Origin: Candidatus Peribacterales bacterium
GTDB lineage: Bacteria > Patescibacteriota > Gracilibacteria > Peribacterales > Peribacteraceae
Reading direction: 5' to 3'
Assembly (NCBI GenBank): GCA_020058765.1
Contig: JAGVDM010000003.1
Span: forward strand, 1 to 52,018
DNA: 52,018 nt
The notes below the pieces were generated by a model. It ran no database searches and was not told the origin of the DNA. It worked only from the letters and a program-made list of their open reading frames with translations. The first letter of the stretch is position 1; each line of letters begins with the position of its first letter. This document shows, one piece after another, positions 6,001-51,763 of the stretch. Position numbers and translations under genes: made by a program.

Positions 6001-6949
6001 CAACGTAAGCCTGTCTGTCACCGACGACAAGGATCCAGTCGATGTGCATGACGAGATTAGCTACAGCATCCGCGTTGTGAACAACAGCGCACAGCAGAGC
6101 ACGCTTGACGTTCGTGCATTCATCGACCGCGACACCGTGTTCCTCGACGCTTCCGGTAACGGCACCGATGAGGATGACGAAGAAGTTGTATGGGAAGATG
6201 TTGTACTGCAAGGCAACGACGATGAAACGCTCCGCCTGGATGTACGCGTGCGCTCCACAGCACAGCCTGGCGACCGCCTGCGCCTGCAGGTACGCGGCTG
6301 CGACGTGGAAGAGACGGAGTACACAAACGTCGACGATGACGGCTACGTCCCACCAGTCTGTACTGGACCAAACTGTCACCCAATCCCACCGGGACCAAAC
6401 CCTGGCACGGGCGTTGTGACTGTCGACAAGCAGGCAGACCGCGGCGAAGTGCAGCCTGGCTCTACGCTCAGCTACACCCTCACAATCCGCAACATGAGCA
6501 ATGGCATCGCGACGGGCATTAGCGTTGAGGATCGCTTCACAGCAGGCACCCTCACGGTAGAAGACCCAGCCGGCGGTATCTCTACGGGCAACGGCGTGCG
6601 ATGGGATATTCCACAGCTCGGACCGAATGAAACTCGTGTCATTCGCTACCGTGTCCGCGTAAGCCAATCGATGCGCCACGGTCAGATCATCACGAACACA
6701 GTGGAAGTGCGCGGCCTCGGCTTCGACCGCACCGCAACAGACTCCACACAGGTGTACGTGATCGAGAACCTACCACAGACAGGTGACGTGAGCTTCCTCG
6801 GCGGCCTCGACCGCAGCAATGGAAACCTCTCGCGCATCCTCCCTGGTACGCAGGGCAGCGCAGCAGCCACATCGTTCGTCCTCTGGACGACGATCATCAC
6901 GCTCGGTATGACCGCAGGCAGCGTGCTCGGCAAGCGAATGTTGCTGTAG
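2..6949 (+). CDS. Giant secreted surface protein with DUF11-like domains, Asp-rich repeats and LPQTG tail (5' end outside window)
   Basis: The frame is open from base 2 and the first visible residues already belong to a DUF11-like domain, so the true start lies left of the window; the GTG at 32 is only the first start-like codon. About 2,315 residues are visible. Seven DUF11-like beta domains (typically opening AD-S-KT/SG) alternate with 17 copies of an Asp-rich unit of the type CSDGIDNDGDGxxDFPADxGC...TDDDE, resembling thrombospondin type-3 calcium-binding repeats. An unrelated domain occupies about residues 269-475. Two pure Ser linkers (about 1734-1749 and 1863-1878) separate later domains with TDSxDP openings. 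The C-terminus has LPQTG at about 2257-2261, a roughly 30-residue spacer, a hydrophobic segment and KRMLL. Probable role: a calcium-stiffened cell-surface stalk or adhesin, anchored by a sortase-like route or a membrane segment. The family assignment is firm; the function is inferred. Confidence 0.85.
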   Translation, partial: PATGLCNQNVVNTATAKAKNAPLMTSSVTTNVTCVTPQCSDGIDNDGDGAVDFPADFSCSDPTDNDETNPKAQCQDGIDNDADGLIDFPLDPGCSSKQDNDEFNVISADLSIDKTVQSSVPRSTGIVKFFLTASNNGPNTATNVTIQDPIPAGLTFNAAQSDPSCVQNGANILCNNFSLTSGQSKNVTISFNIPATYACNTHISNQATVAASSTDPNPANNQSPSVSTLVTCPTTQCSDGIDNDHDGKTDFPADNGCSSPTDDDEVLGDTCVIARASTYQAGPKYASLPSTLPSGVELRDLDLYTNTLTSQDLSNIKLFIYGDSNLNSGPFRTLTTNEKQLLKGKFDNGVNFTFAADNPTADEASAGTRDILNYMQSNMTYSGTYFGTQSGTHTPNTALYPFLQGKIFDFSNTGLNSPGDLVSISSPAQCVFSLNGRCHAGWMPAGNGKGFVFVEGNAGVGSVNYLQNFIQMACNPTPPQCQDGIDNDNDGATDFPADFGCSSPTDDDEGNPKAQCQDGIDNDADGFIDFPQDPGCTSKQDNDEFNNVTADLSVIKSAISQIQRGNTLLYTVTVTNHGPNTASNVAVSDAIPAAGLVFNAAQSSAQCLLHGNSVVCNNLTLPANQSHSFAIAFDVTQNTQCGTTIVNRASVSTSTTDPNSGNNQSNDVFTTVNCPVTPQCSDGIDNDGDGATDFPADFGCSSATDDDESNPKAQCQDGLDNDNDGKIDFPLDPGCQSAQDNDETNAALGADVGIVKTGPSQVVRGGVAVYEITVSNAGPQQADAVLARDNIPVGLVFNAAQSSPECAPNANQILCGVSVLPSGQSKKFSVAFDVPVGLQCNTNVFNQATVGATSPQDPNPNNNQSATISTFIHCPAGLSVDKSGPATIKPGEVITYTLTASNNSNLPINNLKMIDKIQAGLTFNAAQSSPECTLQGNEVQCGTFSLAAGATKTYTVSFTVSQNRQCGSLIVNLVDLLQGTNDLAWDKQETQVTCTQCSDGLDNDGDGKTDFPNDLGCADRNDNDERDPNGPQCDDGKDNDGDGKIDFPQDPGCTGPTDNDEDEPECSDGKDNDGDGAIDFPADFACDSATDDDEGDKKAQCQDTIDNDADSYIDFPQDPGCTSNQDNDEKHVLKADVSIVKSGAPVIQPGTTLLYTISVTNTGPDTATNVAVADVIPAGLFFNSGASSHECVLHGTSVVCDNLTLTKNQSKTFTLAFNVPSTMPCSSVIENHATVATSSSDPDSSNNTSAKVSTTVQCAQKRADVSIEKTGPATTTKGGTLTYTLKATNNGPDAAEAVIIEDIVPFGLTYTGTTAQCAYTANDNTVRCQGFNLNAAESKTFTVSFTVSQNSQCFAQIRNQATVKSTTLDTNQGNNVSGEVTTIVDCQQTPQCSDGIDNDADGATDFPADFGCSSATDDDESNPKAQCQDGLDNDNDGKIDFPLDPGCASNQDNDETDATAQTADMSVDKTGATTITRGGVLKYTVTVKNAGPGTATDIIAVDPAPFGLTFNAAESSQGCTFAAGEVTCKQQGLTLAPNATHAFTIAFTVPQNATCGATIRNQAFVSAKEIDPIVTNNRSQTVDTVVDCGVTPQCSDGIDNDGDGATDYPADFSCSSATDDDETNPKAQCQDGLDNDNDGKIDFPLDPGCQSAQDNDEINVATACNDGVDNDGDGKIDFPADPGCSSTTDTDETGTTACDNGIDDDADGKIDFKADGSGDPECVSPQDQDEAPGSSSSSSSSSSTSSSSSVDQRFSLILTDSKDPINPGDNFDYILTVTNLVNAAIVKDQVTLSLDPDVAFLSTTGSGSHTSGVVKWTNIPFTANGTVTFVISVKASTNLQNGDILKSIAFGSPSDEELTGVVSSSSSSSSSSSSSSSSVVPLTVVLTDSLDPVKPSQCFDYNVRVTNPNTTAINDKTVTLYLDGDVTFSSATNGGTHTNGTVTWTDVDVPGASSVTRTATVCVKSTVQDEELLKSIATLDNVIDDETTRVDDEGNNNGTCNVSLSVTDDKDPVDVHDEISYSIRVVNNSAQQSTLDVRAFIDRDTVFLDASGNGTDEDDEEVVWEDVVLQGNDDETLRLDVRVRSTAQPGDRLRLQVRGCDVEETEYTNVDDDGYVPPVCTGPNCHPIPPGPNPGTGVVTVDKQADRGEVQPGSTLSYTLTIRNMSNGIATGISVEDRFTAGTLTVEDPAGGISTGNGVRWDIPQLGPNETRVIRYRVRVSQSMRHGQIITNTVEVRGLGFDRTATDSTQVYVIENLPQTGDVSFLGGLDRSNGNLSRILPGTQGSAAATSFVLWTTIITLGMTAGSVLGKRMLL

Positions 6950-7003: not shown

Positions 7004-7165
7004 GTGTATACAAAATATATTCAAGAAATATACCGAAGTGAAAACGAGAGAAAGATGCTTTTCATCTGAAGAAAACACAAATGGGTATCGGCAGAAATTC
7101 TGCGGTCGCGATGTGATCAGAACATAGATCTTAACATCAATTCAAGTTGTACTCAGTCCACAGAA

Positions 7166-12464: not shown

Positions 12465-12736
12465 GCACTCTTGCCCGCTTGTACCGCATTACTGGCAACG
12501 TGCAGGGTGTGTTTTTTCGTGCATCTGCAAAAACACGTGCCGAAGCATTGGGGATAACAGGGTGGGCGCGGAATCTGGAGGATGGGTCGGTAGAAGTACA
12601 CGCCGAAGGAAGTACGGACGCACTTACGCAATTTGCGTCCTGGCTCCATACAGGTCCACCCGCAGCTCGCGTAGACACCGTAGAGGAACACGACGTACAG
12701 ACGGAGAATCCAGCTGCATTCTCCATTCTACATTGA
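12461..12736 (+). CDS. acyP: Acylphosphatase
   Basis: 91 residues, the normal size of the family. It hydrolyses acyl phosphates such as acetyl phosphate. The signature GNVQGVFFRASAKTRA carries the phosphate-binding Arg, and GWARNLEDGSVEVHAEG carries the catalytic Asn. ATG 12461 is used because it overlaps the upstream stop by 4 nt and the family sequence begins directly after it. Confidence 0.93.
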   Translation: MSTLARLYRITGNVQGVFFRASAKTRAEALGITGWARNLEDGSVEVHAEGSTDALTQFASWLHTGPPAARVDTVEEHDVQTENPAAFSILH

Positions 12737-12742
12737 ATAAAT

Positions 12743-14140
12743 TTATTGTTCTAAAGTTTGTTCTTCAGGTAGAGGTTTACCTGGAACAAATTTTTTGATC
12801 AACTTCCCGAACCACGGCCCGGTTTGCAGGGCAGTACGGACCTCACTTGGAAGGAAGAGGCCAAGACCAATCATCTGGAACACTTGGCCTGCAGAGAACC
12901 CAAGCGCGAGAGCGTAGACGCCATAGTGTGGCGCGAGGAACCACGATGCCCCCACAGCAATGAGTCCGCTACATACGCTGAATACAGCAGGCTTCACACT
13001 ACTCTTGAGGGAATAGAACGCACGGAGCAGCAGATGATTCATGCTCTCAAACGGAATGCTCACTGCATACAGACCAAGACAGACCCAGAATACGTCGAGC
13101 CGATCGCTCAAATGCACCAGGCGCGCAGCTATTGGTGCGAGTGCTGTGAGGACAATGGCACCAGGGATCGTGAGGCCGAGCATGACGAACGTGCCTTTGC
13201 GCAGATAGACCCAAAACCGCTGCTCCTCGCGACGCGCGATGGACTGGCTCATGAGCGAAAAAGCCGACTGGGCGAGAGCGATGCCCACTACACCCACCAC
13301 CACCGACTGGAAGTTCCGCGCGTACGCATTGATTGTTACCGAACCAGCGGAAAGGCCAGATGCAACCGCATCGAAGAGCAATAGCTGAAACTGCAGCGCT
13401 CCAAGCGCCAGCATGCGCGGCAGCATGAGCCAGCCAAGCTCTGCCAAATCTGGGTGCCACAATCCCAGGCGAAAGAACCCGCCATGCTTGAGTACGGCAA
13501 TCGCCCGCAGCAGTACGTAGGCCACAGCACCAATCACCGATCCAGCCATGGGCCCCAGTGGCCCAAATGCCTCTGAGCCAGAAAGAAACATTGTCCCCAG
13601 GATGGTTCCGAGTGTGTAGAGCACTGGCGTGAGGCCGTAGATCCAATACCGCTGAACAGTAATCAAGTACTGCCCAAACGCATTCCCAAAGACAAAGAGG
13701 AAATTGGTGAGCAGCGCCAGCCGACCGAACGTCACATACAGATCGAATGTCTCCCCGGTAAACTGCACGGAGTACCTCGCAACCTGGGGAAAGAAGACCG
13801 CAAGTACCAGGGCAACCGCACCAAAAACGCAGGCAGCAAGACCCAGCACGCCGCCAAGCAGGCGACCCATTTCTTTGCTGTCCCCTCGACCATGATGCCC
13901 TGCAAGCAACGGTACGAGTGCCACAGAGAACCCCGCCATGATCGTGACCTGGAAGAGCAAGTCACTCGGGCGGAAGGCAGCGATGTAGGCATCCACCACC
14001 TGCAGGTCTGGGAAAGTGGCAGTGAGTGTACGATCGCGCACAAGACCCGCGATCGAAGCAGCGAACTGTGTTGCTGCAAGCACCAGCGCTCCGCCTACGA
14101 GGCGGTGCTGCTGGAATGGGAGGCGGAAAGGAAGGCGCAC
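12743..14140 (-). CDS. murJ: Lipid II flippase MurJ (MviN)
   Basis: 465 residues from GTG 14140. A multi-pass membrane protein of the MOP superfamily that flips undecaprenyl-linked peptidoglycan precursor. Recognisable blocks: AASIAGLVRDRTLTATFP near the N-terminus (the MurJ SRxxGxxRD region), FRPSDLLFQVTIMAGFSVALVPLL and FVFGNAFGQYLI, with about 13-14 hydrophobic helices. Longer starts (ATG 14209, 14293) add a Cys-rich segment that does not fit the family and would cross the purL promoter on the other strand. TATCCT lies 7 nt before the GTG. The exact start is uncertain. The 3' end nearly abuts acyP in convergent orientation. Confidence 0.88.
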   Translation of the reverse strand: MRLPFRLPFQQHRLVGGALVLAATQFAASIAGLVRDRTLTATFPDLQVVDAYIAAFRPSDLLFQVTIMAGFSVALVPLLAGHHGRGDSKEMGRLLGGVLGLAACVFGAVALVLAVFFPQVARYSVQFTGETFDLYVTFGRLALLTNFLFVFGNAFGQYLITVQRYWIYGLTPVLYTLGTILGTMFLSGSEAFGPLGPMAGSVIGAVAYVLLRAIAVLKHGGFFRLGLWHPDLAELGWLMLPRMLALGALQFQLLLFDAVASGLSAGSVTINAYARNFQSVVVGVVGIALAQSAFSLMSQSIARREEQRFWVYLRKGTFVMLGLTIPGAIVLTALAPIAARLVHLSDRLDVFWVCLGLYAVSIPFESMNHLLLRAFYSLKSSVKPAVFSVCSGLIAVGASWFLAPHYGVYALALGFSAGQVFQMIGLGLFLPSEVRTALQTGPWFGKLIKKFVPGKPLPEEQTLEQ

Positions 14141-24552: not shown

Positions 24553-27500
24553 CTACTTTTGCTCTTTGTACTCAGGAATTCCCAGAGCTGCTCGCACAGC
24601 ATTCAGCTGAGCACCTTCGACGATTGGCTTTCCCTTGGCAGCCTGCTCCATCTCTCGATAGAGCGTCTGCAGAAATATCGTAGGATCTGCTGCATCCTTG
24701 TACGCCGCTTCCACTTCAGACCGGAAGCGCAGAAAGGAATTCTGCTGCATTTCGACACTAAGAGTACAGGGGAAGAGATCAATAATGCGTCGTACAGGAA
24801 GCACAAAGTCCTCGCTAGTTCGCTCGGCAATTACGGGGCTTGTAAGCTGCTCAATTGTCCATCGATCTATCGCAATCATTACTTCGCGCTGTGCACGTTT
24901 GTCTGCAGAAAGATCCTTTTCATACTGCTGCAATTCGTCTTGCTTCATATCTGCAGGCAATTTCCGGCCGTATGCATCCCAAAGTTGCAAAGCGTTGCCA
25001 ATGTACTTCATTCGAACAATGCCCCCATTCCGATCGATCTCGCGGAGAAGGACGGCATGTGGACCAAACTGACGAGCAATAGCGCCGTCGATGCGCACAT
25101 CATGCGCCCGTCCAGAGTCACCAATGCCCATGTTCATAACCACTTCCTTGCCCATAATCAGATCACTCACGCGGCGGAATTCACGCGATCCCGCACGGAC
25201 AAAGTCACCATCATCAGACACAGATCGCGAGCGCACTTTCTCCATATCGCGCTGGCGGGTGAGCAGATTCAGTGGCACACGTGTGACCTCAGAATCTTTT
25301 CCGTCCAACGGGCTCTGCCCAACGATAACGAGTGTCACGGGCTTACCAGCTTCGTAGGCAGCTTGAATTTCATCGAAATTGTATCCGTTGTCCGGACGCT
25401 CGGTGAATTCTGCAAGTCGACAATCATACCGTGTGCGATCCTTAAGCGGAGGCACAACAACGAGACGGTTGTCGTGCAAATACACCGAAACTGAGTGATG
25501 AGTCGTCACAGGCACAGTCACTGCGCCTTCTCGCAAGCTCACAGGTAACGCTTGCGATAGATAAGCGAGATTCCCCTTGTTAATCCAACCATCGCGCAGA
25601 ATTTGTTCGAACATTCCGCGAAGGAATTGGTTTTTATCTTTTGCAGCTTCGTAACGTGGAACGAGGGACTCTACGAGTGCAGAGGAGACATTGCCAGTGC
25701 CGTCCTTTTGCACTTCATGAGAAAAGAGACCGAGCAGGCGCGTGAGAGTTGCCTTTGCATCACTTTGCGGGGTGCAATAGAGATCGATAATCCGCTCACG
25801 CTCGGCAGGGTTCAAACGGATATCTGCCATAAGGTCATACGCATTCGTAACCGTGTATTCTCGATCGGCACGATTGTCGTCGTGGTGCAGAATAATCCTG
25901 TCAAACGATGCAGGACGCAGATAGAATTGCTCCTTACCTCCTGAGCGATCGACCTGAACCACCTGCTTCGCAGACGGCATTCGAGAAATGAACAGTGCTG
26001 TGGTTTTCGGATCGAGGGCAATCAGCGATTCACCTGAAGGAAGTGTGACGAAACGGTCTGATAGCATATCGGCATACCCCTCACCGAGGTAACCAAGTGT
26101 GGCGGATTCTAGGAGCATTTGGCTTTGACGCTTCGGTGCATTGAATGCTTCGGTGACAATCGCTTCGCGATCACCGAAATACTTGAAAAGCGAAGGGCAA
26201 TCGCGCAGATATGTACGTTGCTCCAGACCTTGAATGGGGCGAGACGCATACCCTGCCGATGTGTAGCGCAGCGACGCAGCGCTCCGATGGACACGAACGA
26301 CTGCATCTGTATCGCTGAAACTGGGAATATCATCGGATGTGCTCGCATAATTCTCCAGATGAGTCGCAAGTGCCGTGAGTGTGCCATCCGGCAGAAGGTC
26401 AAACTCAACGAACACCGCAGACGGATCTGCCTCGTAGGGGAGCCTTGGATCCACTTGGCGAGTCTTCGCCACAGCGGCAAGTAAGCGCATCGCTGGAGAG
26501 TTGGGAGTAATTTCCACACCTGCAGGCAAGGAAAGGTGCAGTGCAGGCTGCACCGTCTCGCCGGAATACAGTGCACTGCCGATATGATCGGCACGGAAAA
26601 ATTGCCTGTGGGGATCAAATTCAGCACTCGGGCGTCCGCGTTCATTCGAACGCGAAAGAGCATCTGCAGTGACGCGGTCACGAAGTGACAACTCAACCCA
26701 CTCGCGCATTTGCCTGTTCTTCGGATCGAGCTCGAATTCCGAGGCGTGATAATACATGTCAGAACCGCGCGTGTAGCGCCACTCGCGATCCCACTTGCCT
26801 TCTTTTTTTACTGTCTCTTTTCCAATGAAAATTGACCGACGGAGAGTGTATGATCTTCCTTCACTATCCACGAAAAAGAACGTTGCCTGCACAAGATTGC
26901 TAGGCATGCGCCCACCGAGACCCTCATTGTATGTGAACGAACTAAAATCGAGTGTGACCGCTTCTAGATTACTGTTGCGGAAATACGGATCCTCGGCCTT
27001 GGGTGCAATATCCATGAGCTGGGTCGCAAGTGCAGTGTGATCAAATGCGCCATCGGTCGTGATAGTATTCCTTTCCGAGATCAGTACGAGGGGACGTGGG
27101 CAGGCAACAACAGTGCCGTTCGGGGCAACACGTGTAACGGTCCAATCCGGAAAGAGTTTCTTTTCCCATTCGGGAACGCGTCCGTATCCACCACCTGGAT
27201 GCTTGGCGAAATACATCGCGGATTGTTCCGTGATCCGTTGCAGTGTGTAGTCGCGAGGAGCAAACCGGCCGCCACCTAGCAGTTCAGGTGCGTACACTAC
27301 TGCGCCTGCAGATGCGCGCTTCTCCGCATCAGCTTGCCCACGGCTTGTCTGCTGGTGAATAGCAAAGAATGCAAGTACCTCGGAGCGAGAGTTCTCCTTG
27401 AAATCAGGAGAGCCAGGCTCCTGTTCATAGAGCGATCCAAGCTTCATGCGCAAAAGCGGATCCTGCACATACTGACCGTAGAGCTTGGCTCGATCTGTCG

Positions 27501-30500
27501 AACCCATTTCGGAAAACGGTACATTCAATGATGCAAGATCTTCATCGGATACGTCTCCAATTGTTCGTGGTTTCCAGCCATTTTCTGCAGTGCCATACAC
27601 CACCTCTGTATTCAGGAGTGCAATTACCTCCGTCAACCGGATCTCACGTCCTCCGATTGAAACCGTCTCATCGGCATCTACACCCTTTTCACTACGGATT
27701 TTCGCAAGGCGCTGGCGCATGTGTAACGCTCGTGCTGCATGTACATACGGCATGTATGCCACCACAGCATCACGCAATGCTGTGCGAATCTGTAATGGCG
27801 TCGCACGGGCGATAAAGTTCGTTTTTGGGTCAACTTGCGCCTCGATCAACCGATCCATTTGGCGTCCTTTGACCGGACTTACAGAATTGAGCGGATTGAG
27901 AAGTACATCCTTGAGCTGCATGGAGCCGCTCCATCGAACCGCCGTCGTATTGTCGAACTGCTCGGCAAGACGAGCATAAAAGAGTGGCAATACAATCCTC
28001 TGGAAATCACCCTTATAAAAGGTGTCGACAAATGAAATGTCGCCCGCGCCCTGTTTCTCTGCAAAAAGATCACCCATTGCGCCGGGGGCGTTTTGGCTGA
28101 GATCTTCACAGAGAGCGCTAAACAAGAGCTTATGGCGAATATCTACTTTGTCCTCCTGGGAAAGATCTGCCATCCAGTCAGACCATTCATCATCAGCAAG
28201 ACCGTTTATCATACTAAACGATGATTCGTTCAGTGTGCCTGCAACAGAAATTGCCGTGAGCAACCATGCCGGAGCATTCTTCAAAAATTCTTTCTTCTTG
28301 CCCATTTCCCACTCGCCAATTGTGGCATCGATCGTTACCTCAATAATCATGCCGCCAACACCAATGACGAGCCCAACCGGACCACCAGCCACAATGGAGA
28401 CAGCAAGGATCGCCACACCAGCACTGGCATTAATTGCCTCTGCATAACGTGCATATGTTTCGGCATCCAAGCTACCTTCCAGTGATTTGAGACTGATCGA
28501 AATACCAGAAGCCTCATGTACATATTCACCATCTTTTTCCCCTGCCTTGAACCCCAAGCCTGGTTCGCCCACTTCCGTATTCCCTACAAGCGTATTCCGC
28601 AAATACTGCTTCTTTTGCTCCACAATTTCTGGTGTTGCCACTGCCGTTTGCCATCGCTCGAAAGCAACGTATCCCTGCCATGCGAGCGCAACACCACCAA
28701 GTACGCGCCCGCCCACTTCGAGTGCGTCCATACTAGATTGTGCAGCTAGGCGACCCTCAAGATTGGATGCCTTTGCAAATTCCCGCCAACGAGCAAGATC
28801 ATCGGCTGTACTCCCTGCAGCGGCAAGACTCTTGGGGATCGGCGCACCATTGCGTGCAAGAAGCATCGCAATTTGCTCCGCCTCGCGACCGCACCAGCCG
28901 TTGCGAAGGAGATATTTAATTTCAGTTGCTTGCAGACCTGCTTCCTTAAGAATTTTCCACTTCTGCACCAAATCTGATCTTAACCATGTCCCCCCCGGAC
29001 CGGTCGCCGGAATATTGTGTGCCCTTGCAATTGCATGCTCAATTTTCGTCATCTGCACAGCAGAACGACCCTGTGCGAGAATCTTTGCTTCACGCAATCC
29101 TTCAATAGCCTTTGCTGCACGTTCTGCATCATCAGCGAACTCCACTGCCTTCATGCCCGCATATCGATTGAGATAACTTGCGGTACGACTTGCTGGCGAC
29201 AGTGCGTATTCCCCTGCTCTGTACAGACGTGCAACGTCTTGTGCCGCCTCGTATCCTGCACCCACAGTGAGCCTGTAACCCCATTTTACAAACGGAATAC
29301 TATTCACAAGTGTTGTATGACGAACGGAAAGCACAATATTTTTGCCGTACCACGCAAGAAGCGCATATGCCCACCACGGCCATTCATTGTCGCGGGCGGC
29401 ATTATTCAAATCACGATTCGCATCCAATTTTTCATTCTGCAAACGAAAGAGATCTTCTTGCAATACGCCACCCGCTTCTGCGTACTCTCCCGCATGCGCC
29501 TGCATTTCGAGGATGACATACAGCCATACTGCAGCAAGCCTAGCGGGGCTGCGCTTTAGCGCCTCCTCATCTTTCATAATATCTGCCAGCTTCACTTCCC
29601 CAGACGAGAGCTTGTCGTACAGTTCCTGATCTGGTTTCACATCCACAAGATCCATGGGGTGCTTTAGCTTCCATAGACGATCGACTAGTACAGCATCGGA
29701 CTCCACAACAGCAAGTTTGCTCTTCACATCATCCTCACGTGCCAGCAGTGCCTCCCTGGTGGTCTTAATGCGCTCGTTAATTTTCTGCCATTGCTCCTCC
29801 GGGATCGCATCCCAGTGATCGGCATTCAGCGGATCGAAAGGCTCTGTGCTCTTCTTGCCGTCACGAACCACATCAACGGTATCCGGGAGCTGCCACGCTT
29901 TGCGTACATTTTGCAGCAAGCGGTGCGCCTCCTGTTGGAACGTCACCTTCGGGAGCACATAATCCGTCGCAGTTTCTCCAGCCACTGCCTGCGATGCAGT
30001 CCGTGCCACTTCGTTGCTCAGCACTTTCGGCAAGGCATTCACACGAGCGAGGCCATCAATCAACTGAATCACTCCACCGAATCGTGCATGTTTATAGGCA
30101 TTTTCACCAATATATCTCCAATCATCGATATCTGTAATTTTCAGGTCGAACACATCGTCTACAAGCTTTCGATGTTCGGTGATGATGGACTTACTATTAT
30201 TCCATTGGCGCTCCATATCCCCCTTGAGCTCAGGATGTTCTGCAAGAAATGCAGACCAATCTTTTGGTGCATCACTCTCGTTCCCATGCTCGGTATCAAA
30301 CATACCCGTCGTAATCTGCTCAATACCGCCGATGAAATGCTGGAGTACATCATGTTGATACTGTTTGTACCGCTCAGTGAGTGACGTGCGGAATACCCGC
30401 TGTTCCTGAATGAGTTTTTTCTTTTGATCGCTCTCTTCCATATCCGTATTGAGACGAAGCTCCTCAACACGTGACGATTCCGCAACCGCCTGCAAATACG

Positions 30501-31296
30501 ACGTGTAGAACACATCGACAGGATTCTGTCCCGCATGCTCCGGACGAATGCCGGGCATGCCTTGCTGGTAAGACAAGAGCAATTCGATCTGCCTATCGAG
30601 CATGGTTTCGGCCTCCGCCAGCGCGGTATCGCTCAGAATAGCTTTCGGATCCATGCCGCGAAACTTTGCTTGGTCGATTACAACTTTGGCTGGTTTGCCC
30701 TTGAGCACTCCAGTCACTTCCGACGGAAGCGCTGCCAATGCTTCGCGAAACTGCGCATCCATTACAGCCTTCCCTTCGCTCCTACGCAGTGAAAGCATAC
30801 GAAACTCCTTGAATGCCATTAGAGTGCGCAGGGTAGCATCGAGCTCAGACAAATGATGCTCTGCGCTCATCTGCGCTGCCGGGTCCACATTCACCGTCAA
30901 TCCGCGCTTATCCACCTCAGCCTTCAGTGCCGTATAACGGGCAATAAGCTGCTGGTTCCATTGGATGATTTTTAGATTTCTTTCAAGATTTTCAATGCGT
31001 ACCTCCGCCAGTTGCATCTCTTCTTTGCGGGAACCGTGCACATGCTGTGCAAGACGCTGCCGCTCTTCATAGGCAATACGCAAGTTATACATCTCTTCAA
31101 CACCAGCAATATCGTCATCACTACTCATCGCCTCGATGACAGAGTCAACTTTCTCCTGTGTGATCGGTCCAACCGCCTCACTACCACGTGCCCCCTCTCG
31201 TCTGCGTGGCAGTTTCCACGATTCGTCACGCTTGCCAAGCGCATCGCTATAGCGATCGAATGCGGGATTTCCCTGTGGTTTTTCGGGTTCCGCCAT
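24553..31296 (-). CDS. Giant protein of unknown function (2,247 residues)
   Basis: ATG 31296 begins MAEPEKPQGNPAFD; there is no signal peptide. The N-terminal about 600 residues are charged and mainly helical, with coiled-coil stretches (near 60-130 and 290-330). Candidate membrane segments: WPWWAYALLAWYG near 635, VGGRVLGGVALAWQGYVAF near 860 and a Gly-rich stretch ASAGVAILAVSIVAGG near 955-995. The C-terminal about 1,100 residues are mixed alpha/beta without obvious repeats. I see no nucleotide-binding loop, protease, nuclease or polymorphic-toxin signature. It is the last gene of a four-gene - strand group with 31334, 31879 and 32335, whose products are also mostly single-pass membrane proteins, so a shared envelope-associated complex is likely. 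Neither name nor function can be given. Confidence 0.8.
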   Translation of the reverse strand: MAEPEKPQGNPAFDRYSDALGKRDESWKLPRRREGARGSEAVGPITQEKVDSVIEAMSSDDDIAGVEEMYNLRIAYEERQRLAQHVHGSRKEEMQLAEVRIENLERNLKIIQWNQQLIARYTALKAEVDKRGLTVNVDPAAQMSAEHHLSELDATLRTLMAFKEFRMLSLRRSEGKAVMDAQFREALAALPSEVTGVLKGKPAKVVIDQAKFRGMDPKAILSDTALAEAETMLDRQIELLLSYQQGMPGIRPEHAGQNPVDVFYTSYLQAVAESSRVEELRLNTDMEESDQKKKLIQEQRVFRTSLTERYKQYQHDVLQHFIGGIEQITTGMFDTEHGNESDAPKDWSAFLAEHPELKGDMERQWNNSKSIITEHRKLVDDVFDLKITDIDDWRYIGENAYKHARFGGVIQLIDGLARVNALPKVLSNEVARTASQAVAGETATDYVLPKVTFQQEAHRLLQNVRKAWQLPDTVDVVRDGKKSTEPFDPLNADHWDAIPEEQWQKINERIKTTREALLAREDDVKSKLAVVESDAVLVDRLWKLKHPMDLVDVKPDQELYDKLSSGEVKLADIMKDEEALKRSPARLAAVWLYVILEMQAHAGEYAEAGGVLQEDLFRLQNEKLDANRDLNNAARDNEWPWWAYALLAWYGKNIVLSVRHTTLVNSIPFVKWGYRLTVGAGYEAAQDVARLYRAGEYALSPASRTASYLNRYAGMKAVEFADDAERAAKAIEGLREAKILAQGRSAVQMTKIEHAIARAHNIPATGPGGTWLRSDLVQKWKILKEAGLQATEIKYLLRNGWCGREAEQIAMLLARNGAPIPKSLAAAGSTADDLARWREFAKASNLEGRLAAQSSMDALEVGGRVLGGVALAWQGYVAFERWQTAVATPEIVEQKKQYLRNTLVGNTEVGEPGLGFKAGEKDGEYVHEASGISISLKSLEGSLDAETYARYAEAINASAGVAILAVSIVAGGPVGLVIGVGGMIIEVTIDATIGEWEMGKKKEFLKNAPAWLLTAISVAGTLNESSFSMINGLADDEWSDWMADLSQEDKVDIRHKLLFSALCEDLSQNAPGAMGDLFAEKQGAGDISFVDTFYKGDFQRIVLPLFYARLAEQFDNTTAVRWSGSMQLKDVLLNPLNSVSPVKGRQMDRLIEAQVDPKTNFIARATPLQIRTALRDAVVAYMPYVHAARALHMRQRLAKIRSEKGVDADETVSIGGREIRLTEVIALLNTEVVYGTAENGWKPRTIGDVSDEDLASLNVPFSEMGSTDRAKLYGQYVQDPLLRMKLGSLYEQEPGSPDFKENSRSEVLAFFAIHQQTSRGQADAEKRASAGAVVYAPELLGGGRFAPRDYTLQRITEQSAMYFAKHPGGGYGRVPEWEKKLFPDWTVTRVAPNGTVVACPRPLVLISERNTITTDGAFDHTALATQLMDIAPKAEDPYFRNSNLEAVTLDFSSFTYNEGLGGRMPSNLVQATFFFVDSEGRSYTLRRSIFIGKETVKKEGKWDREWRYTRGSDMYYHASEFELDPKNRQMREWVELSLRDRVTADALSRSNERGRPSAEFDPHRQFFRADHIGSALYSGETVQPALHLSLPAGVEITPNSPAMRLLAAVAKTRQVDPRLPYEADPSAVFVEFDLLPDGTLTALATHLENYASTSDDIPSFSDTDAVVRVHRSAASLRYTSAGYASRPIQGLEQRTYLRDCPSLFKYFGDREAIVTEAFNAPKRQSQMLLESATLGYLGEGYADMLSDRFVTLPSGESLIALDPKTTALFISRMPSAKQVVQVDRSGGKEQFYLRPASFDRIILHHDDNRADREYTVTNAYDLMADIRLNPAERERIIDLYCTPQSDAKATLTRLLGLFSHEVQKDGTGNVSSALVESLVPRYEAAKDKNQFLRGMFEQILRDGWINKGNLAYLSQALPVSLREGAVTVPVTTHHSVSVYLHDNRLVVVPPLKDRTRYDCRLAEFTERPDNGYNFDEIQAAYEAGKPVTLVIVGQSPLDGKDSEVTRVPLNLLTRQRDMEKVRSRSVSDDGDFVRAGSREFRRVSDLIMGKEVVMNMGIGDSGRAHDVRIDGAIARQFGPHAVLLREIDRNGGIVRMKYIGNALQLWDAYGRKLPADMKQDELQQYEKDLSADKRAQREVMIAIDRWTIEQLTSPVIAERTSEDFVLPVRRIIDLFPCTLSVEMQQNSFLRFRSEVEAAYKDAADPTIFLQTLYREMEQAAKGKPIVEGAQLNAVRAALGIPEYKEQK

Positions 31297-33570: not shown

Positions 33571-34509
33571 CTACCTTTGTAGCCAGGATCGGAATTCGGA
33601 TTCGCCCTGTTGGGCTAGCGCCCGACACATGGCAGCGTCTTGGCTGCGAAGCGACGAGAGTTTGTCTTCCTGCTTCTGCTGTACAACCTCGAATGGCACA
33701 CCGAGCCCCAAAGCCACCAGCGCACCATGGTAACGCTCAGAGAGGACATACGATGCGGTTTGCACATTCTTCGTGAGCTCTTCGAGAGTCCGAACACCAA
33801 TGCATTGCGCTGGAACCGAGCACAGTGCCCGGATGCTTTCGCAATACTGCTTTTCCTGCGGGTCATCTGGCGCGAGGGAGAGAATGCGCACCTCGGTCCA
33901 CTCCGGGTGTTCCTTGAGCAACGTTTGCACGCGTTTGCGGAAACTATCGCCAGAGTTCATTCGTGGTATAACAGTGAATATATTTTTTGTTCTTACATCG
34001 AATTTCTTGTCTTCCAGAAGCAAAATAACAGGATCAAAAGTTTGAACAATTTTTCTGTTCAAATTCCAAGACTCGACGCGAGAATACGAGTGCTTGTCAC
34101 GAACGGAAATATGGTGGCACCTATACACTGCTGAGCGAGCAAACCACTCGCCTATCTTGGTATGAAAGGGGCCAATCCCCTGGAACTCCAAAGCAACGCG
34201 TGCGCCAAGCGCCCGCGCAACGCATACGTGCCACCACCAGAGAATGCACGCATAGACCGATTCGATATCCGTAAAGAGTGTTCCACCGCCAAATACCACC
34301 ACGTCTGCCTGCCGGATGGCTTTGACGGTGCTCCACCATGGCTGAAAGAGCGAACGTATACCGCACGGAAGGCGGGGAACCTGCCCTGCGCCAGGGTGCA
34401 CAGACACTGTCACCCACTCCACCTCTGGGAATCGCTGCAAAAAATAACCCTTGAGCGCCTCATCGCCCAAGTTCCCCACGCCGTAATTCCCGACGAGCAC
34501 GCAGCGCAT
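33571..34509 (-). CDS. csaB: Polysaccharide pyruvyl transferase (CsaB-like)
   Basis: 312 residues. N-terminus VGNYGVGNLGDEALKGYFLQ, middle VVVFGGGTLFTDIES and C-terminal VLSERYHGALVALGLGVPF match the pyruvyl transferase fold (GT-B-like halves; S-x-R-x-H-x-x-I/L-A motif). CsaB adds ketal pyruvate to secondary wall polymer, which makes the ligand for SLH domains; an SLH protein is at 17.5 kb. A patch at about 33960-34070 is unusually AT-rich for the window and encodes residues near 150-185. It lies 23 nt after rplS on the same strand. A TACAGT box 7 nt before the ATG may give it its own promoter. Confidence 0.8.
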   Translation of the reverse strand: MRCVLVGNYGVGNLGDEALKGYFLQRFPEVEWVTVSVHPGAGQVPRLPCGIRSLFQPWWSTVKAIRQADVVVFGGGTLFTDIESVYACILWWWHVCVARALGARVALEFQGIGPFHTKIGEWFARSAVYRCHHISVRDKHSYSRVESWNLNRKIVQTFDPVILLLEDKKFDVRTKNIFTVIPRMNSGDSFRKRVQTLLKEHPEWTEVRILSLAPDDPQEKQYCESIRALCSVPAQCIGVRTLEELTKNVQTASYVLSERYHGALVALGLGVPFEVVQQKQEDKLSSLRSQDAAMCRALAQQGESEFRSWLQR

Positions 34510-34532: not shown

Positions 34533-34958
34533 TTACTCTGCGCTCTCTACTGTTTCTACTGTTTCTGCAGGAACATCCTCTCCTGGAATTGCGAATTCAC
34601 CTGCAGTGGTGAAACGCTCGTTCATGCGAGCGGACTTGCCGTGACGACCACGGAGGAAGAACAGCTTCGCGCGGCGAACCTTCGCCACCTTCTTCACTTC
34701 GATCTTCTCCACGTTCGGGGAGTTGATTGGGAAGATCTTCTCCACACCCACACCAGAAACAATGCGGCGTACCGTCATTGTAGAATCGGCAGGACCATGA
34801 CCTTTATGCAGAGAAATCACCAATCCCTCAAAGATCTGTACGCGCTCCTTCTCCCCTTCCTGGATCTTCTCGTGCACACGCACGGTGAACCCGGGACGGA
34901 TATCGGGGCGAGCCTTTTTGAAGGCTGCCGACTGTGCTTGGATGAGCGCAGAAGACAT
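34533..34958 (-). CDS. rplS: 50S ribosomal protein L19
   Basis: 141 residues, with about 25 extra acidic residues at the C-terminus ([16 protein letters not shown]). Core motifs: [48 protein letters not shown] and [19 protein letters not shown]. It lies at the 30S-50S interface. The usual neighbours trmD and rimM are absent. Confidence 0.96.
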
Positions 34959-35026: not shown

Positions 35027-35614
35027 CTACTTCGCGATCGCGTCGGCCATTTCCTGCTGAATAGCATTCATCACCATTAAATGCCGTGGATCGTTCGTAA
35101 TCTCAGAGATAAAGCGATCCCGGAGGCTCAAGCGGTACAGGAAGTCTCCTTCTGTGAAGATGGAATACTTCACGTTCTTGAACGTAGGATCCTGCAAGAG
35201 CAATGCCTCGAGCATTTCCTTCTTTACTTCTCCAACAACAAGGAGATCCACCTTGCTCTCGGTGCCCACGAAGGCGCCGGCAAGGACTACCAGTTTTACA
35301 TGTGGGAGCTTCTTTAAGGAGGCAACAATTGGACTGTCTGCCTGTACTTCCTTGGCGAAAATGCTTTTGAGCTCTGTATAAAGGAAGAACTCCGTATCCA
35401 CACGGTAGTACTTCTTGCGATTGCGATGGCGTGCCTTTACAAGACCCACGCGGCGGAGGTTCTCGAGCTCACGACGAATAGAGTTGATTTGCTCGTTGAG
35501 CAAGCGTGTCAGCTCGCGAATGAAATACTCCTGCTCGGGATGGAGCAGGAATGTAGAGAGCAGCTTCACTCTCGTTTGGGAGCTGAACAATGCTTTAAGT
35601 ACAGAGGAAGACAT
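35027..35614 (-). CDS. Winged-helix transcription regulator with a nucleotidyltransferase-like C-terminal domain
   Basis: 195 residues. The first about 75 form a winged helix of ArsR/MarR type (VLKALFSSQTRVKLLSTFLL, QEYFIRELTRLLNEQINSIR as recognition helix, VGLVKARHRNRKKYYRV wing). Residues 100-165 (KLVVLAGAFVGTESKVDLLVVGEV) resemble the core of minimal nucleotidyltransferases, with GAFxG in place of GSxxxG and one clear Asp, so it is probably not catalytic. It is divergent from the VirB6-like gene; matching inverted sites TTTGTGAACA overlap both transcription starts, which points to autoregulation and control of the divergent genes. Confidence 0.78.
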   Translation of the reverse strand: MSSSVLKALFSSQTRVKLLSTFLLHPEQEYFIRELTRLLNEQINSIRRELENLRRVGLVKARHRNRKKYYRVDTEFFLYTELKSIFAKEVQADSPIVASLKKLPHVKLVVLAGAFVGTESKVDLLVVGEVKKEMLEALLLQDPTFKNVKYSIFTEGDFLYRLSLRDRFISEITNDPRHLMVMNAIQQEMADAIAK

Positions 35615-35632: not shown

Positions 35633-35671
35633 TGTTCACAAACTGTACTCATACATGGATTGGTAGTGCAA
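35633..35671 (-). promoter_or_regulatory. Promoter of the regulator with operator half-site
   Basis: On the - strand TTGCAC (35671-35666), an 18-nt spacer and TACAGT (35647-35642), followed at once by TTTGTGAACA (35642-35633) over the expected transcription start. Leader of about 20-27 nt. Confidence 0.55.
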
Positions 35672-35684
35672 GAAAATTGATCGA

Positions 35685-35708
35685 TATAATGTTCAGTATT
35701 TGTGAACA
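35685..35708 (+). promoter_or_regulatory. TATAAT box with palindromic operator
   Basis: Perfect TATAAT (35685-35690) on the + strand, with a loose TTGGTA 19 nt before it. The box runs into TGTTCA-GTATTTG-TGAACA (35690-35708), a 6+6 bp perfect inverted repeat over the expected start site. Its right half, TTTGTGAACA (35699-35708), is the exact inverted copy of the site at 35633-35642. Confidence 0.6.
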
Positions 35709-35712
35709 GGTT

Positions 35713-35734
35713 ATTTGGCTTTAAAAAGCCAAAT
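35713..35734 (+). other. Perfect hairpin in the leader of the VirB6-like gene
   Basis: ATTTGGCTT (35713-35721), loop TAAA, AAGCCAAAT (35726-35734). No U-run follows, so it is not a standard terminator. It lies in the RNA that would start near 35697, about 160 nt before the gene. Confidence 0.6.
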
Positions 35735-35861
35735 ATTAATAATACTGACTGCAAAATGATTGAATGTTGATCAAAATTTATACTCACAACTGAACCTATT
35801 TTATGTTCTCGAGTACATTCGTTCGTCACTTCAGGAAGGCGGATTGGGTGGGAGGATTGTC

Positions 35862-35885
35862 TTTGAAGGCGAAAACTGCTACACT
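35862..35885 (+). promoter_or_regulatory. sigma70 promoter with extended -10, leaderless start
   Basis: The -35 is the TTGTCT that ends 17 nt before the -10, and the -10 is TGC-TACACT (TACACT at 35880-35885, extended TGn). Six nt later comes ATG 35892. This is the best leaderless promoter in the window. Confidence 0.65.
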
Positions 35886-35891
35886 GTCTTG

Positions 35892-37694
35892 ATGCCTTCA
35901 CACACAAAAATCTTCTTCGGTTTACTCGGTTCTTTGATCCTCTCTTGGTACATCGTGACCGAAGGGGTACTCGGCACAGGCATGGCGTTTGCGCAGGCTA
36001 CTGGAGCAGCTCCTGGAGGCTCAGGATCACTCAGTACCGCACAGCTGCTGGAGAAGCTTGGACTGTTTTTCAATGTGTGCATTTTTTTAATGCATATCAT
36101 CCTGCAATTTGTTTCCGCCCTCATTGACCCGGAACGCATGATGGTAGTGCTCAGCGGTGCAGGTGGAACAAATACCTTGCTCGAAATTTGGCAGCTTTCA
36201 CGTGGAATCACCAACACGATTCTTGCCTTCATGCTGATCTTTGTAGCGCTCTACGCCGTGATCAATCCAGACGGCGGCACCGCAATGATCAAAGAGAAAA
36301 TTGGAAAGTTCGTGCTCGCAGTGATCCTTGTAAACTTTTCCTGGTTCTTCCCACGCGTCATCATCGACATTGCAAACGTGCTCACTGCAACGATCTACCA
36401 AATCCCCTCCACTATCGGAATCGACTGTAAAACAACAGATGATGCAGGTGGAGAAAAGCCGTGCTCTGTCATCAAGAACGTGTGGCTGTACCCAAAATTA
36501 CCGCGTACTGGCGGTGGAGGTGTACCTGTTCCAGCGGAATGCAAATCTGGAGCAAGCACGAACCCCAATATTAAACCAATGGGTGAAGTGGTGTGTGTAG
36601 AGCTTGCACCATGGGACCCATCGATCAATACGGGGCACGGCATGCTCCAGGGATTGTATGTGAACCACGTGCGCATTCTTTCACTCGCAAAGGTGCCCCG
36701 AGAACCAGGCCCAGCCGACGGCTCGTGGGCAGGTATTAAGGAATTGGGACGGTTCTTCGTACAGTTCGTCTTCGCATTCACAATCTTCCTCGCAGCCCTC
36801 ATTCCGCTCCTTGCCATGGCGGCGGTCTTCGTTGTGCGGCTTGTGATGATCTGGCTCACAGTGGCATTCATGCCATTCATGTTCATTGGCTTTGTGATGG
36901 GCGACAAAATGGGTGAGTTCAACACCATGAACATGATCTTCAAGAAGTTCCTCGCTGCAGCGTTCCTCCCCGCAGCTGTCGCCATTCCGTTGGTCGTTGG
37001 TATTCTTATGATCAACGCGGCAACCGCTGGAATGCCCTGCCCCAGCGGTGACGCGAAGCTGAAATTCCTCTGTGAGGATCACGGCATGCTCATTCCTGGT
37101 GTGAAGAACCTGTGGGTGCTCCTCTGGAACTTCGCTGCAATTGTCATTATGTGGCTTGGGTTCTTCAGTGCACTCAAGATCGACACCCTCTACGCGAGCG
37201 TAGGAGGCGTGTTTAAGAGCGTAGGCGAGAACTGGTTCAAGTTCGGCCTCAAGGCTCCGCTTGCATTGCCAATCCTGCCTATGGGCTCCGGGAAGAATAA
37301 ATCGATCCTGGAAACAATTGGCGGCGATGCCGGTCTTGCTGTGGCTCGTAACCCGAACCTCATGATCAACTCGGCGGGCAAAATCGACTTTGAAGACACG
37401 AAGAAACAATTCGCTGCACCCACCTCTCGAGACAGCGGTACAGACAGCGCCCTGGCACGCAACGAAGGCGAACTGGCGAAAAAGCTTGGCGACCTTACCA
37501 GTGCTCTCAATACACGAGATGCGACTGGAGCCGAGATTCAAGAGCTAACGAACTTCTTCAGGAGCAACCGAGCGAACGGCATCACCAATATCAAAGCCGC
37601 GCTGCAATCCAGCACGCTCGGCGACAATCGTATGCGTGATCCCGAGCGCCTCGATGCGCTGGCAACACGCCTTGAAGAAGAACTCGCGAAGTAA
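35892..37694 (+). CDS. Polytopic membrane protein, VirB6/TrbL-like
   Basis: 600 residues from ATG 35892, which begins a signal-like helix (FFGLLGSLILSWYIVTEGVL...AFAQA). The longer TTG start at 35760 lacks a sensible N-terminus. About eight hydrophobic segments: after the signal, FFNVCIFLMHIILQFVSAL, TILAFMLIFVALYAVI, FVLAVILVNFSWFF, then an extracytoplasmic region with Cys and Pro (about 185-270), a block of two or three helices (FVFAFTIFLAALIPLLAM..., LTVAFMPFMFIGFVM), FLAAAFLPAAVAIPLVVGIL, and LWVLLWNFAAIVIMWLGFF. The cytoplasmic tail of about 150 residues is soluble. The pattern resembles VirB6/TrbL inner-membrane components of type IV secretion or pilus systems. No other such component is in the window, so this is tentative. 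Followed by its partner after 15 nt. Confidence 0.55.
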   Translation: MPSHTKIFFGLLGSLILSWYIVTEGVLGTGMAFAQATGAAPGGSGSLSTAQLLEKLGLFFNVCIFLMHIILQFVSALIDPERMMVVLSGAGGTNTLLEIWQLSRGITNTILAFMLIFVALYAVINPDGGTAMIKEKIGKFVLAVILVNFSWFFPRVIIDIANVLTATIYQIPSTIGIDCKTTDDAGGEKPCSVIKNVWLYPKLPRTGGGGVPVPAECKSGASTNPNIKPMGEVVCVELAPWDPSINTGHGMLQGLYVNHVRILSLAKVPREPGPADGSWAGIKELGRFFVQFVFAFTIFLAALIPLLAMAAVFVVRLVMIWLTVAFMPFMFIGFVMGDKMGEFNTMNMIFKKFLAAAFLPAAVAIPLVVGILMINAATAGMPCPSGDAKLKFLCEDHGMLIPGVKNLWVLLWNFAAIVIMWLGFFSALKIDTLYASVGGVFKSVGENWFKFGLKAPLALPILPMGSGKNKSILETIGGDAGLAVARNPNLMINSAGKIDFEDTKKQFAAPTSRDSGTDSALARNEGELAKKLGDLTSALNTRDATGAEIQELTNFFRSNRANGITNIKAALQSSTLGDNRMRDPERLDALATRLEEELAK

Positions 37695-48346: not shown

Positions 48347-48367
48347 TTGAACAATAGTATTGTTCAA
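48347..48367 (-). terminator. Hairpin downstream of thrS
   Basis: TTGAACAATA, one central base, TATTGTTCAA: a 10-bp perfect inverted repeat, 14 nt after the thrS stop. On the - strand it is followed by TACCTCTCTTTT, a loose U-rich tract; on the + strand by AATTTTATCTC. Probably a modest terminator separating thrS from lgt. Confidence 0.55.
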
Positions 48368-50281: not shown

Positions 50282-51763
50282 CTATCGACCGAGCCCCAAT
50301 TCCTGCTCGATTGCGCGTACTTCGCGCAGTAGTTGCGGATCATCCTGCATCTTCGTTTCGATCTTCGTAACCGCATTCATCACCGTGGTGTGATCGCGAC
50401 CAGAGAAAATTTCACCAATGCGCACAAAGCTCATACGCAGGTATGCCTTGCCCACGAACATGGCAATCTGCCGCGGCACCAGGATCTCGCGAACGCGCGA
50501 CGCACCGAGCATGTCATTCACCGACACGGAGTAATAGCGGCTCACGGATTCCAATACATCTTGGAATGTGGGAGCGCGGCGTGTTTGCACTTGGAATCCG
50601 ACAGACTCCTCTTCTTCGTACGGATCTTTGTTCAACTTGCGCATGATCTCGGCGATGCTCTTTACCGTAGGCATGCGCTGCTCCAGTTCGTAGAGCGCGA
50701 ACGCCTGCATGAGAATGCCCTCCAGTTCGCGAACATTGCGAGTGACGTGCTGTGCAATGAACTGCAGCACGGCAGGATCGATGAACATCTCATACTCCTT
50801 GGCCTTCTCACTAATGATCGCAAGGCGTGTTTCATAGTCTGGAACAGACACGTCGGCGATCATGCCGCGTTCAAAGCGAGACGTGAGGCGATCCTCCAGT
50901 TGCAGCTCCTGCGGTGGGCGGTCTGCCGACAGGATGATTTGCTTTCGTTCTTCGTACAGAGAATTGAACGTGTGGAAGAACTCTTCTTGTGTGCGCTCCT
51001 TGTTTGCAAGGAACTGTACGTCGTCAATGATGAGCACATCCACCGATCGGTAGCGGCGACGCAACTGATCCATTTTTTGCGAGCGAATGGCTTCCACCAC
51101 CTGATTCGTGAAGTCTTCGGTAGTGGTGTACACCACAGCGGCACGCGGCATATGCCGCAGAATGGCATTGCCCGTGGCTTGTAGCAGATGGGTTTTGCCG
51201 AGACCCACATCACCGTAAATGAACAGCGGGTTGTATTTGCCACCCGGCGCGCCGGCCACGGCCTGACACGCAGCATTCGCAAGACGTGAGTGCGATCCTA
51301 CGACGAAATTCTCCAGCGTGTACTTGGGATTGAGGATCTTACTCACGATGCCTTCTGCCATCTTCACCTCTTGCTTGCCTGGAAGTTTGCGACGCTTTTT
51401 TTCGGGGAAATGTTCTAGGATATCCACAGCACGTTCGCGGTTATCTTTGAGCGTTCCATCCACTTTGTAGACGACATTTTCAATAGTGGAATCACATATT
51501 CTGGCGGCATCCAGTGTGGTGTTGCGGTAGTTCTGCAGGTGCCAATCGAGTGCCATGGGGATCGGCAACCCGATCACAATGGTTGCCCCTTCGCGTGTGA
51601 GTAGTGCTGTATCGCGAAACCACGTAATGAACTGACTGCGCTGCAATTTTGGTTCGAGCTCACGCAGAATCGCGAGCCACAACTCCGACATACCCGTAAC
51701 GGGGACTGCGGGATCTTCGCGCGCCGGTGCATCGATAACGCTAGAAGAGGCGGAGGATGTCAT
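50282..51763 (-). CDS. dnaA: Chromosomal replication initiator protein DnaA
   Basis: 493 residues from ATG 51763; ATG 51691 (MSELWLAILRELEPKL) fits the usual family N-terminus and is a good alternative. Domain I at the N-terminus; AAA+ domain with Walker A GDVGLGKTHLLQ, Walker B VDVLIIDDVQFL and the Arg-finger region SRFERGMIADV; domain IV with the signature GRDHTTVMNAVTKIE. It unwinds the origin. No dnaN follows, and I see no cluster of DnaA boxes, so this is not a classic oriC. The start overlaps the 3' end of the protease gene by 23 nt. Confidence 0.97.
   Translation of the reverse strand: MTSSASSSVIDAPAREDPAVPVTGMSELWLAILRELEPKLQRSQFITWFRDTALLTREGATIVIGLPIPMALDWHLQNYRNTTLDAARICDSTIENVVYKVDGTLKDNRERAVDILEHFPEKKRRKLPGKQEVKMAEGIVSKILNPKYTLENFVVGSHSRLANAACQAVAGAPGGKYNPLFIYGDVGLGKTHLLQATGNAILRHMPRAAVVYTTTEDFTNQVVEAIRSQKMDQLRRRYRSVDVLIIDDVQFLANKERTQEEFFHTFNSLYEERKQIILSADRPPQELQLEDRLTSRFERGMIADVSVPDYETRLAIISEKAKEYEMFIDPAVLQFIAQHVTRNVRELEGILMQAFALYELEQRMPTVKSIAEIMRKLNKDPYEEEESVGFQVQTRRAPTFQDVLESVSRYYSVSVNDMLGASRVREILVPRQIAMFVGKAYLRMSFVRIGEIFSGRDHTTVMNAVTKIETKMQDDPQLLREVRAIEQELGLGR

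Follow-up and report, generated by a model that had tools for sequence, protein, structure and literature searches.

Two short inverted repeats lie between a regulator gene and the divergently oriented gene for a VirB6-like membrane protein, and raise the question of which protein reads them and which of the two genes they serve. A preliminary description had placed each repeat directly after a -10 box, one for each gene, and had proposed that the winged-helix product of the neighbouring gene represses both itself and the VirB6-like operon. The sites, their spacing and conservation, their constraint at the DNA level and the predicted fold of the regulator were computed for a stretch of 52,018 nucleotides (the window), for the genome it comes from and for related genomes. 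Genome-wide work combined pattern searches with sampled stretches of other genomes.

The inverted repeats are fragments of a dyad array

The 10-mer TGTTCACAAA at 35633-35642 is the exact reverse complement of TTTGTGAACA at 35699-35708, as had been described, and the second copy is indeed extended into an exact palindrome, TGTTCA-N7-TGAACA (operator C in Table 1). This is the single exact occurrence in the whole genome (1,168,903 bases), which contains the pattern with one mismatch at five other places; simple base counting predicts about 0.07 exact occurrences per genome. Three inverted 10-mer pairs are present in the 277-bp intergenic region, compared with 0.058 in dinucleotide shuffles, 0.2% of which reach three. 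One of the other pairs is a GGCT dyad separate from the pair first described. The exact palindrome alone is mildly improbable, and the weight of the evidence is conservation.

Anchoring 66 Candidatus Peribacteraceae (Peribacteria, Patescibacteria) loci on the regulator gene revealed that the two 10-mers are fragments of a larger array at fixed spacing, made up of 19-bp dyads (B, A, C and D, plus a weaker site E). Both sites of the preliminary description are real, and the pair is incomplete: the array holds four to five sites, two more lie within csaB, and others occur elsewhere in the genome. The likely promoter of the regulator is TTGCAC-18-TACWGT. Operator B, with the consensus TGAGTAC-NN-TTTGTGAACA, is almost invariant in all 66 family orthologs and covers both the -10 box and the predicted transcription start. 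The regulator start codon follows B by at most 5 nt in 38 of the 66 genomes, which suggests a leaderless message there. Element A is highly conserved at fixed spacing; it is weak as an operator and strong as a promoter element. The position of operator C is kept in the family, with 71% of sites scoring above 6, operator D lies 133-138 bp upstream of B in nearly all orthologs, and the TGTTCT element of site E is present in many relatives.

The training set of a symmetric position weight matrix (PWM) comprised 31 sites that precede class-level orthologs of the regulator and 18 that precede rsmH in other genomes, and left out the array sites and all sites of the genome under study. Among 52,000 window positions the matrix ranked D 4th, B 8th, C 9th, E 13th and A 19th.

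Table 1. Positions of the genes, promoter elements and putative operators at the regulator locus.
Feature	Position	Strand	Description
csaB-like polysaccharide pyruvyl transferase gene	33571-34509	-	second gene downstream of regulator; two intragenic sites
Putative intragenic operator 2	33975-33993	-	csaB offset 516; 68 bp from operator 1
Putative intragenic operator 1	34043-34061	-	csaB offset 448
rplS (ribosomal protein L19)	34533-34958	-	directly downstream of regulator
Regulator gene	35027-35614	-	195 aa; ArsR-like winged helix (1-96) and degenerate minimal-nucleotidyltransferase-like domain (~106-195)
Putative operator B	35633-35651	-	TGAGTACAGTTTGTGAACA; contains TGTTCACAAA; overlaps regulator -10 TACAGT (35642-35647)
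Element A	35665-35683	-	CGATCAATTTTCTTGCACT; 32 bp upstream of B; holds regulator -35 TTGCAC (35666-35671)
Putative operator C	35690-35708	-	TGTTCA-N7-TGAACA palindrome; 57 bp upstream of B
Perfect 10-2-10 dyad	35713-35734		ATTTGGCTTT-AA-AAAGCCAAAT; between C and D
Putative operator D	35768-35786	-	TGAGTATAAATTTTGATCA; 135 bp upstream of B
Weak site E	35791-35809	+	TGAACCTATTTTATGTTCT
VirB6-like promoter	35857-35891	+	TTGTCT-17-TACACT with upstream TGC; ATG at 35892; apparently leaderless
VirB6-like membrane protein gene	35892-37694	+	divergent from regulator; start corrected from TTG at 35760; family synteny

At the position of the perfect dyad ATTTGGCTTT-AA-AAAGCCAAAT, 78-79 bp from B, 11 of 65 relatives have GGCT-N-AGCC, with a control of 0, and a similar GGCT...AGCC element adjoins a dyad at the rsmH locus of another genome (G006, L297). 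The perfect dyad could be a second operator or a hairpin. No meaningful Rfam match to a known RNA element was obtained at the locus.

Other strong dyads in the window are at 7005-7023, 12734-12752, 12783-12801 and 48348-48366, the last upstream of an Lgt-like gene. The best-scoring of these lies between a giant ORF (32-6949, 2305 aa) and an ORF at 7147; a second giant ORF near the locus spans 24553-31296 (2247 aa).

The operator accompanies the regulator, not its divergent neighbour

Nearly all family loci in which the contig reaches far enough (57 of 61 named loci) have the VirB6-like gene in divergent orientation. The name VirB6-like is the label of the preliminary description; no Pfam family scored above cut-off for the protein. 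The TATAAT at 35685-35690 that had been taken as its -10 box is present in the window, and five of its six bases are kept in 8 of 66 relatives only, so that it was rejected. Relatives instead carry an extended -10, TGnTAnAAT, about 7 nt before the VirB6-like ATG (window position 35877-35885), with at least six of eight matches in 50 of 54 and a distance to the ATG that is mostly 6-8 nt. The placement of the 10-mers directly after -10 boxes accordingly stands on the minus strand, where B overlaps the regulator's -10 in 66 of 66 loci, and falls on the plus strand. The VirB6-like promoter is about 190 bp from the plus-strand palindrome. Only D and E are nearer, some 70-110 bp upstream of its -10, and control through these two sites is possible.

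Orthologs of the regulator outside the family but within the class are 41-53% identical to it. The general dyad (TGWNYAM-N5-KTRNWCA) was found within 300 bp upstream of 29 such orthologs, exactly in 18 and with at most one mismatch in all 29; shuffles gave 0.05 and 1.7, and the reversed pattern 0 and 2, respectively. In these loci the gene on the upstream side encodes trigger factor, a small membrane protein or other products (names read from the sequences), and a VirB6 HMM found no match among these neighbours. The dyad thus stays with the regulator when the gene on the other side is a different one, which assigns the operator to the regulator and not to VirB6. Beyond the class, the dyad is near background upstream of homologs (1 of 45 exact). 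Autorepression by the regulator, which presumes that it binds these sites, is the best reading of them and is well supported by the overlap with its own promoter and the class-wide company of operator and ortholog. Repression of the VirB6-like operon, the other half of the original proposal, is at most weakly suggested with its promoter ~190 bp away.

A second pair of sites is kept within csaB

Two dyads about 1.6 kb from the array lie inside the csaB-like gene, at offsets that are constant among orthologs. Each csaB ortholog was recoded 500 times with synonymous codons at its own codon usage. Site 1 scored above 8 in 30 of 53 orthologs, whereas after recoding the number of orthologs doing so averaged 8.4, with a maximum of 16; for site 2 it was 27 of 59, with a mean of 1.6 and a maximum of 6 after recoding. 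Elsewhere in csaB the fraction scoring above 8 is 0.00006 per position. Protein sequence contributes sizeably to site 1 and little to site 2. Because both sites exceed the synonymous null and the peptides encoded there vary among orthologs, the pair points to selection on the DNA itself, beyond codon needs. By analogy, putative looping between the pair and the array is a natural reading of this arrangement.

Dyads elsewhere in the genome and candidate targets

The preliminary description would have been undermined by a motif scattered at random across the genome. That pattern was not seen: this genome has 13 copies of the general dyad and one of the reversed control, and the dyad count was above control in 39 of 40 genera (equal to control in one, G043). 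The division cluster is headed by rsmH, and the dyad in front of this gene was exact in 14 of 30 genomes and present with at most one mismatch in 21, with controls of 0 and 0; the copy in this genome has one mismatch. In the sampled genome G050, 13 of 22 dyads are intragenic.

Two further candidates were set aside. Counts for clpC (6 of 30 exact; 8 of 30 with one mismatch, control 3) are suggestive only and do not make it a core target. A virB4-like gene shares the dyad in 3 of 30 genomes only and would be a lineage-specific target at most. A strongly conserved promoter-like sequence (TTCTGCTATAATA, then GATT) is found upstream of a VirB4-like ATPase gene in the family (L099-L128).

The regulator is predicted to combine a winged helix with a degenerate nucleotidyltransferase-like domain

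A single-copy ortholog of the regulator is present in 66 of 74 family genomes, and homologs occur in 220 of 287 genomes across the phylum. One record titled 'Kiritimatiellales bacterium' (JAIPIN010000009.1) encodes a regulator 81% identical to that of the window and was placed among Peribacteraceae; it is probably mislabelled or mis-binned. The regulator is adjoined by rplS in all 66 family loci and in most class-level loci, and the two genes are probably co-transcribed.

In the AlphaFold2 model (pLDDT 88), residues 1-96 form an ArsR-type winged helix, in agreement with the fold first proposed; the best structural matches of this predicted model are BigR (Z 11.7, rmsd 2.4, 92 aligned residues), CzrA (Z 11.6) and SqrR (Z 11.3), and P. 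furiosus Phr (2p4w) matches with Z 11.0 and 25% identity over 75 residues. A separate model of the C-terminal domain (pLDDT 94) weakly matches minimal nucleotidyltransferases (best Z 6.9; Foldseek probability up to 0.97, best E ~0.01). The domain has lost the first catalytic acid, with SKVD in place of SDxD; relatives have K, R, E, A, S, P or T where the window protein has K, and the second D alone is invariant. The 195 residues include no cysteine. The regulator scored 28.2 bits with the curated model NF033788, below the cut-off of 55; no Pfam model scored above cut-off, and no sequence homolog was found in the PDB. A few literature searches found no description of the regulator or its motif in Patescibacteria.

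Proposed mechanism and alternatives

We propose that the regulator is a repressor recognising the 19-bp dyads. Bound at B, over its own -10 and start site, and aided by A, C and D, it would silence its own gene and probably also rplS downstream. The csaB sites would most likely act as auxiliary operators, through looping or local concentration as in the lac operon, and the rsmH/dcw cluster would be among the further targets. The C-terminal pseudo-nucleotidyltransferase domain may serve in ligand sensing or in holding subunits together. We assign this explanation as a whole, in which the regulator's binding and repression are inferred from comparative data, a probability of about 0.74.

Some other global DNA-binding protein might bind the dyads, the regulator gene being merely one of its targets. 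The genome-wide distribution fits this idea, as does the presence of some dyads far from any promoter, and one family genome that is 96% complete (G001) has 11 dyads against a control of 0 while its regulator went undetected even with a profile. We nevertheless judge it unlikely: the site follows the regulator class-wide while the other neighbour changes, the array at the regulator gene is dense and rigid, and its TGAACA/TGAATA half-sites are similar to the ones used by ArsR/SmtB proteins (PMC8790569), which have the same fold as the regulator. The dyads could also form a chromosome-organising code of the matS/SBS kind, read by the winged-helix or another protein, with autoregulation secondary. 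Many sites are intragenic, including the conserved pair in csaB, and 20 of the 22 sites sampled in G050 fall within 180-680 kb, around the GC-skew terminus, with few near the skew origin (stretches of this genome that read as N were left out of the counts). That interval was picked post hoc, however. A terminus test fixed in advance failed in G018 (p 0.999), where the skew was so flat that the terminus could not be located, and its result in G042 (8 versus 7, p 0.21) did not reach significance. The clear promoter overlap at the regulator also weighs against such a code, which we consider improbable, and the terminus clustering is reported as unexplained rather than as a finding. A combined role is a long shot on the same sequence evidence: the winged-helix/pseudo-nucleotidyltransferase protein, widespread in Patescibacteria, would in this class be an autorepressor and also a region-specific chromosome organiser, its dyads, of which many are intragenic and some constrained as DNA, marking the origin-distal half of the chromosome and the cell-division cluster.

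The array could also be read as a replication origin carrying divergent DnaA boxes, but this is hardly credible. The array is AT-rich, intergenic and full of repeated boxes, and dnaA (50282-51763 in the window) lies 15-20 kb from it in six of six genomes, but the array contains no TTWTNCACA box, and the single one in the whole window is elsewhere. Two TTATCCACA boxes were found instead near dnaA, at 618.8 and 621.1 kb in G050 (140 kb examined), and the GC-skew minimum of that genome, near 1.07-1.09 Mb, is far from both the array and dnaA; the origin was rejected on these grounds. The dnaA gene of G050 lies closer to the skew terminus than to the skew origin, and is thus apparently not at the origin there. 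Inverted repeats arising by chance in AT-rich intergenic DNA would account for the exact palindrome, which at ~0.07 per genome is not compelling alone, yet conservation at fixed positions in 66 genomes and the independent PWM ranks leave this explanation with next to no weight.

Implications and comparison with known systems

Most Patescibacteria are not culturable. The comparative data point to a specific regulator with a specific 19-bp operator and predict its targets, among them the dcw cell-division cluster and ribosomal protein L19; a single purified protein would be enough to test all of these in vitro. The retention of an operator pair inside a gene, over and above what the codons require, is an unusually clean indication of intragenic regulation. 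Taken together, the comparisons indicate a class-wide operator system, very probably autorepressive, with a putative intragenic pair and a predicted division-cluster target.

The closest parallels are the ArsR/SmtB autorepressors CzrA, SmtB, BigR and SqrR, which share the winged-helix fold (Z 11.7-10), an operator over their own promoter and TGAACA/TGAATA/TGAGTA half-sites. Their operators are 12-2-12 inverted repeats with these half-sites (PMC8790569), whereas the half-sites of the present dyad are 7 bp apart rather than 2 bp, and the regulator has no cysteine, carries an extra C-terminal domain and scores below the family cut-offs. The regulator would behave like an ArsR-type autorepressor, yet given its score, its operator spacing and its lack of sensor cysteines we do not assign it to the ArsR/SmtB family. 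The heat-shock regulator Phr of Pyrococcus furiosus (2p4w) is likewise an ArsR-like winged helix in a protein of ~200 residues, but the winged helix alone aligns, and a clpC site is found in 6 of 30 genomes only. Minimal nucleotidyltransferases (MNT antitoxins, HalB, 3c18) resemble the C-terminal fold in a weak match (Z 6.9-5), whereas the domain here is without the first catalytic acid and is fused to a winged helix. The lac operon has a main operator on its promoter and an auxiliary operator inside the downstream gene; in the system described here two intragenic sites lie ~1.6 kb away, the repressor fold is unrelated, and looping is putative.
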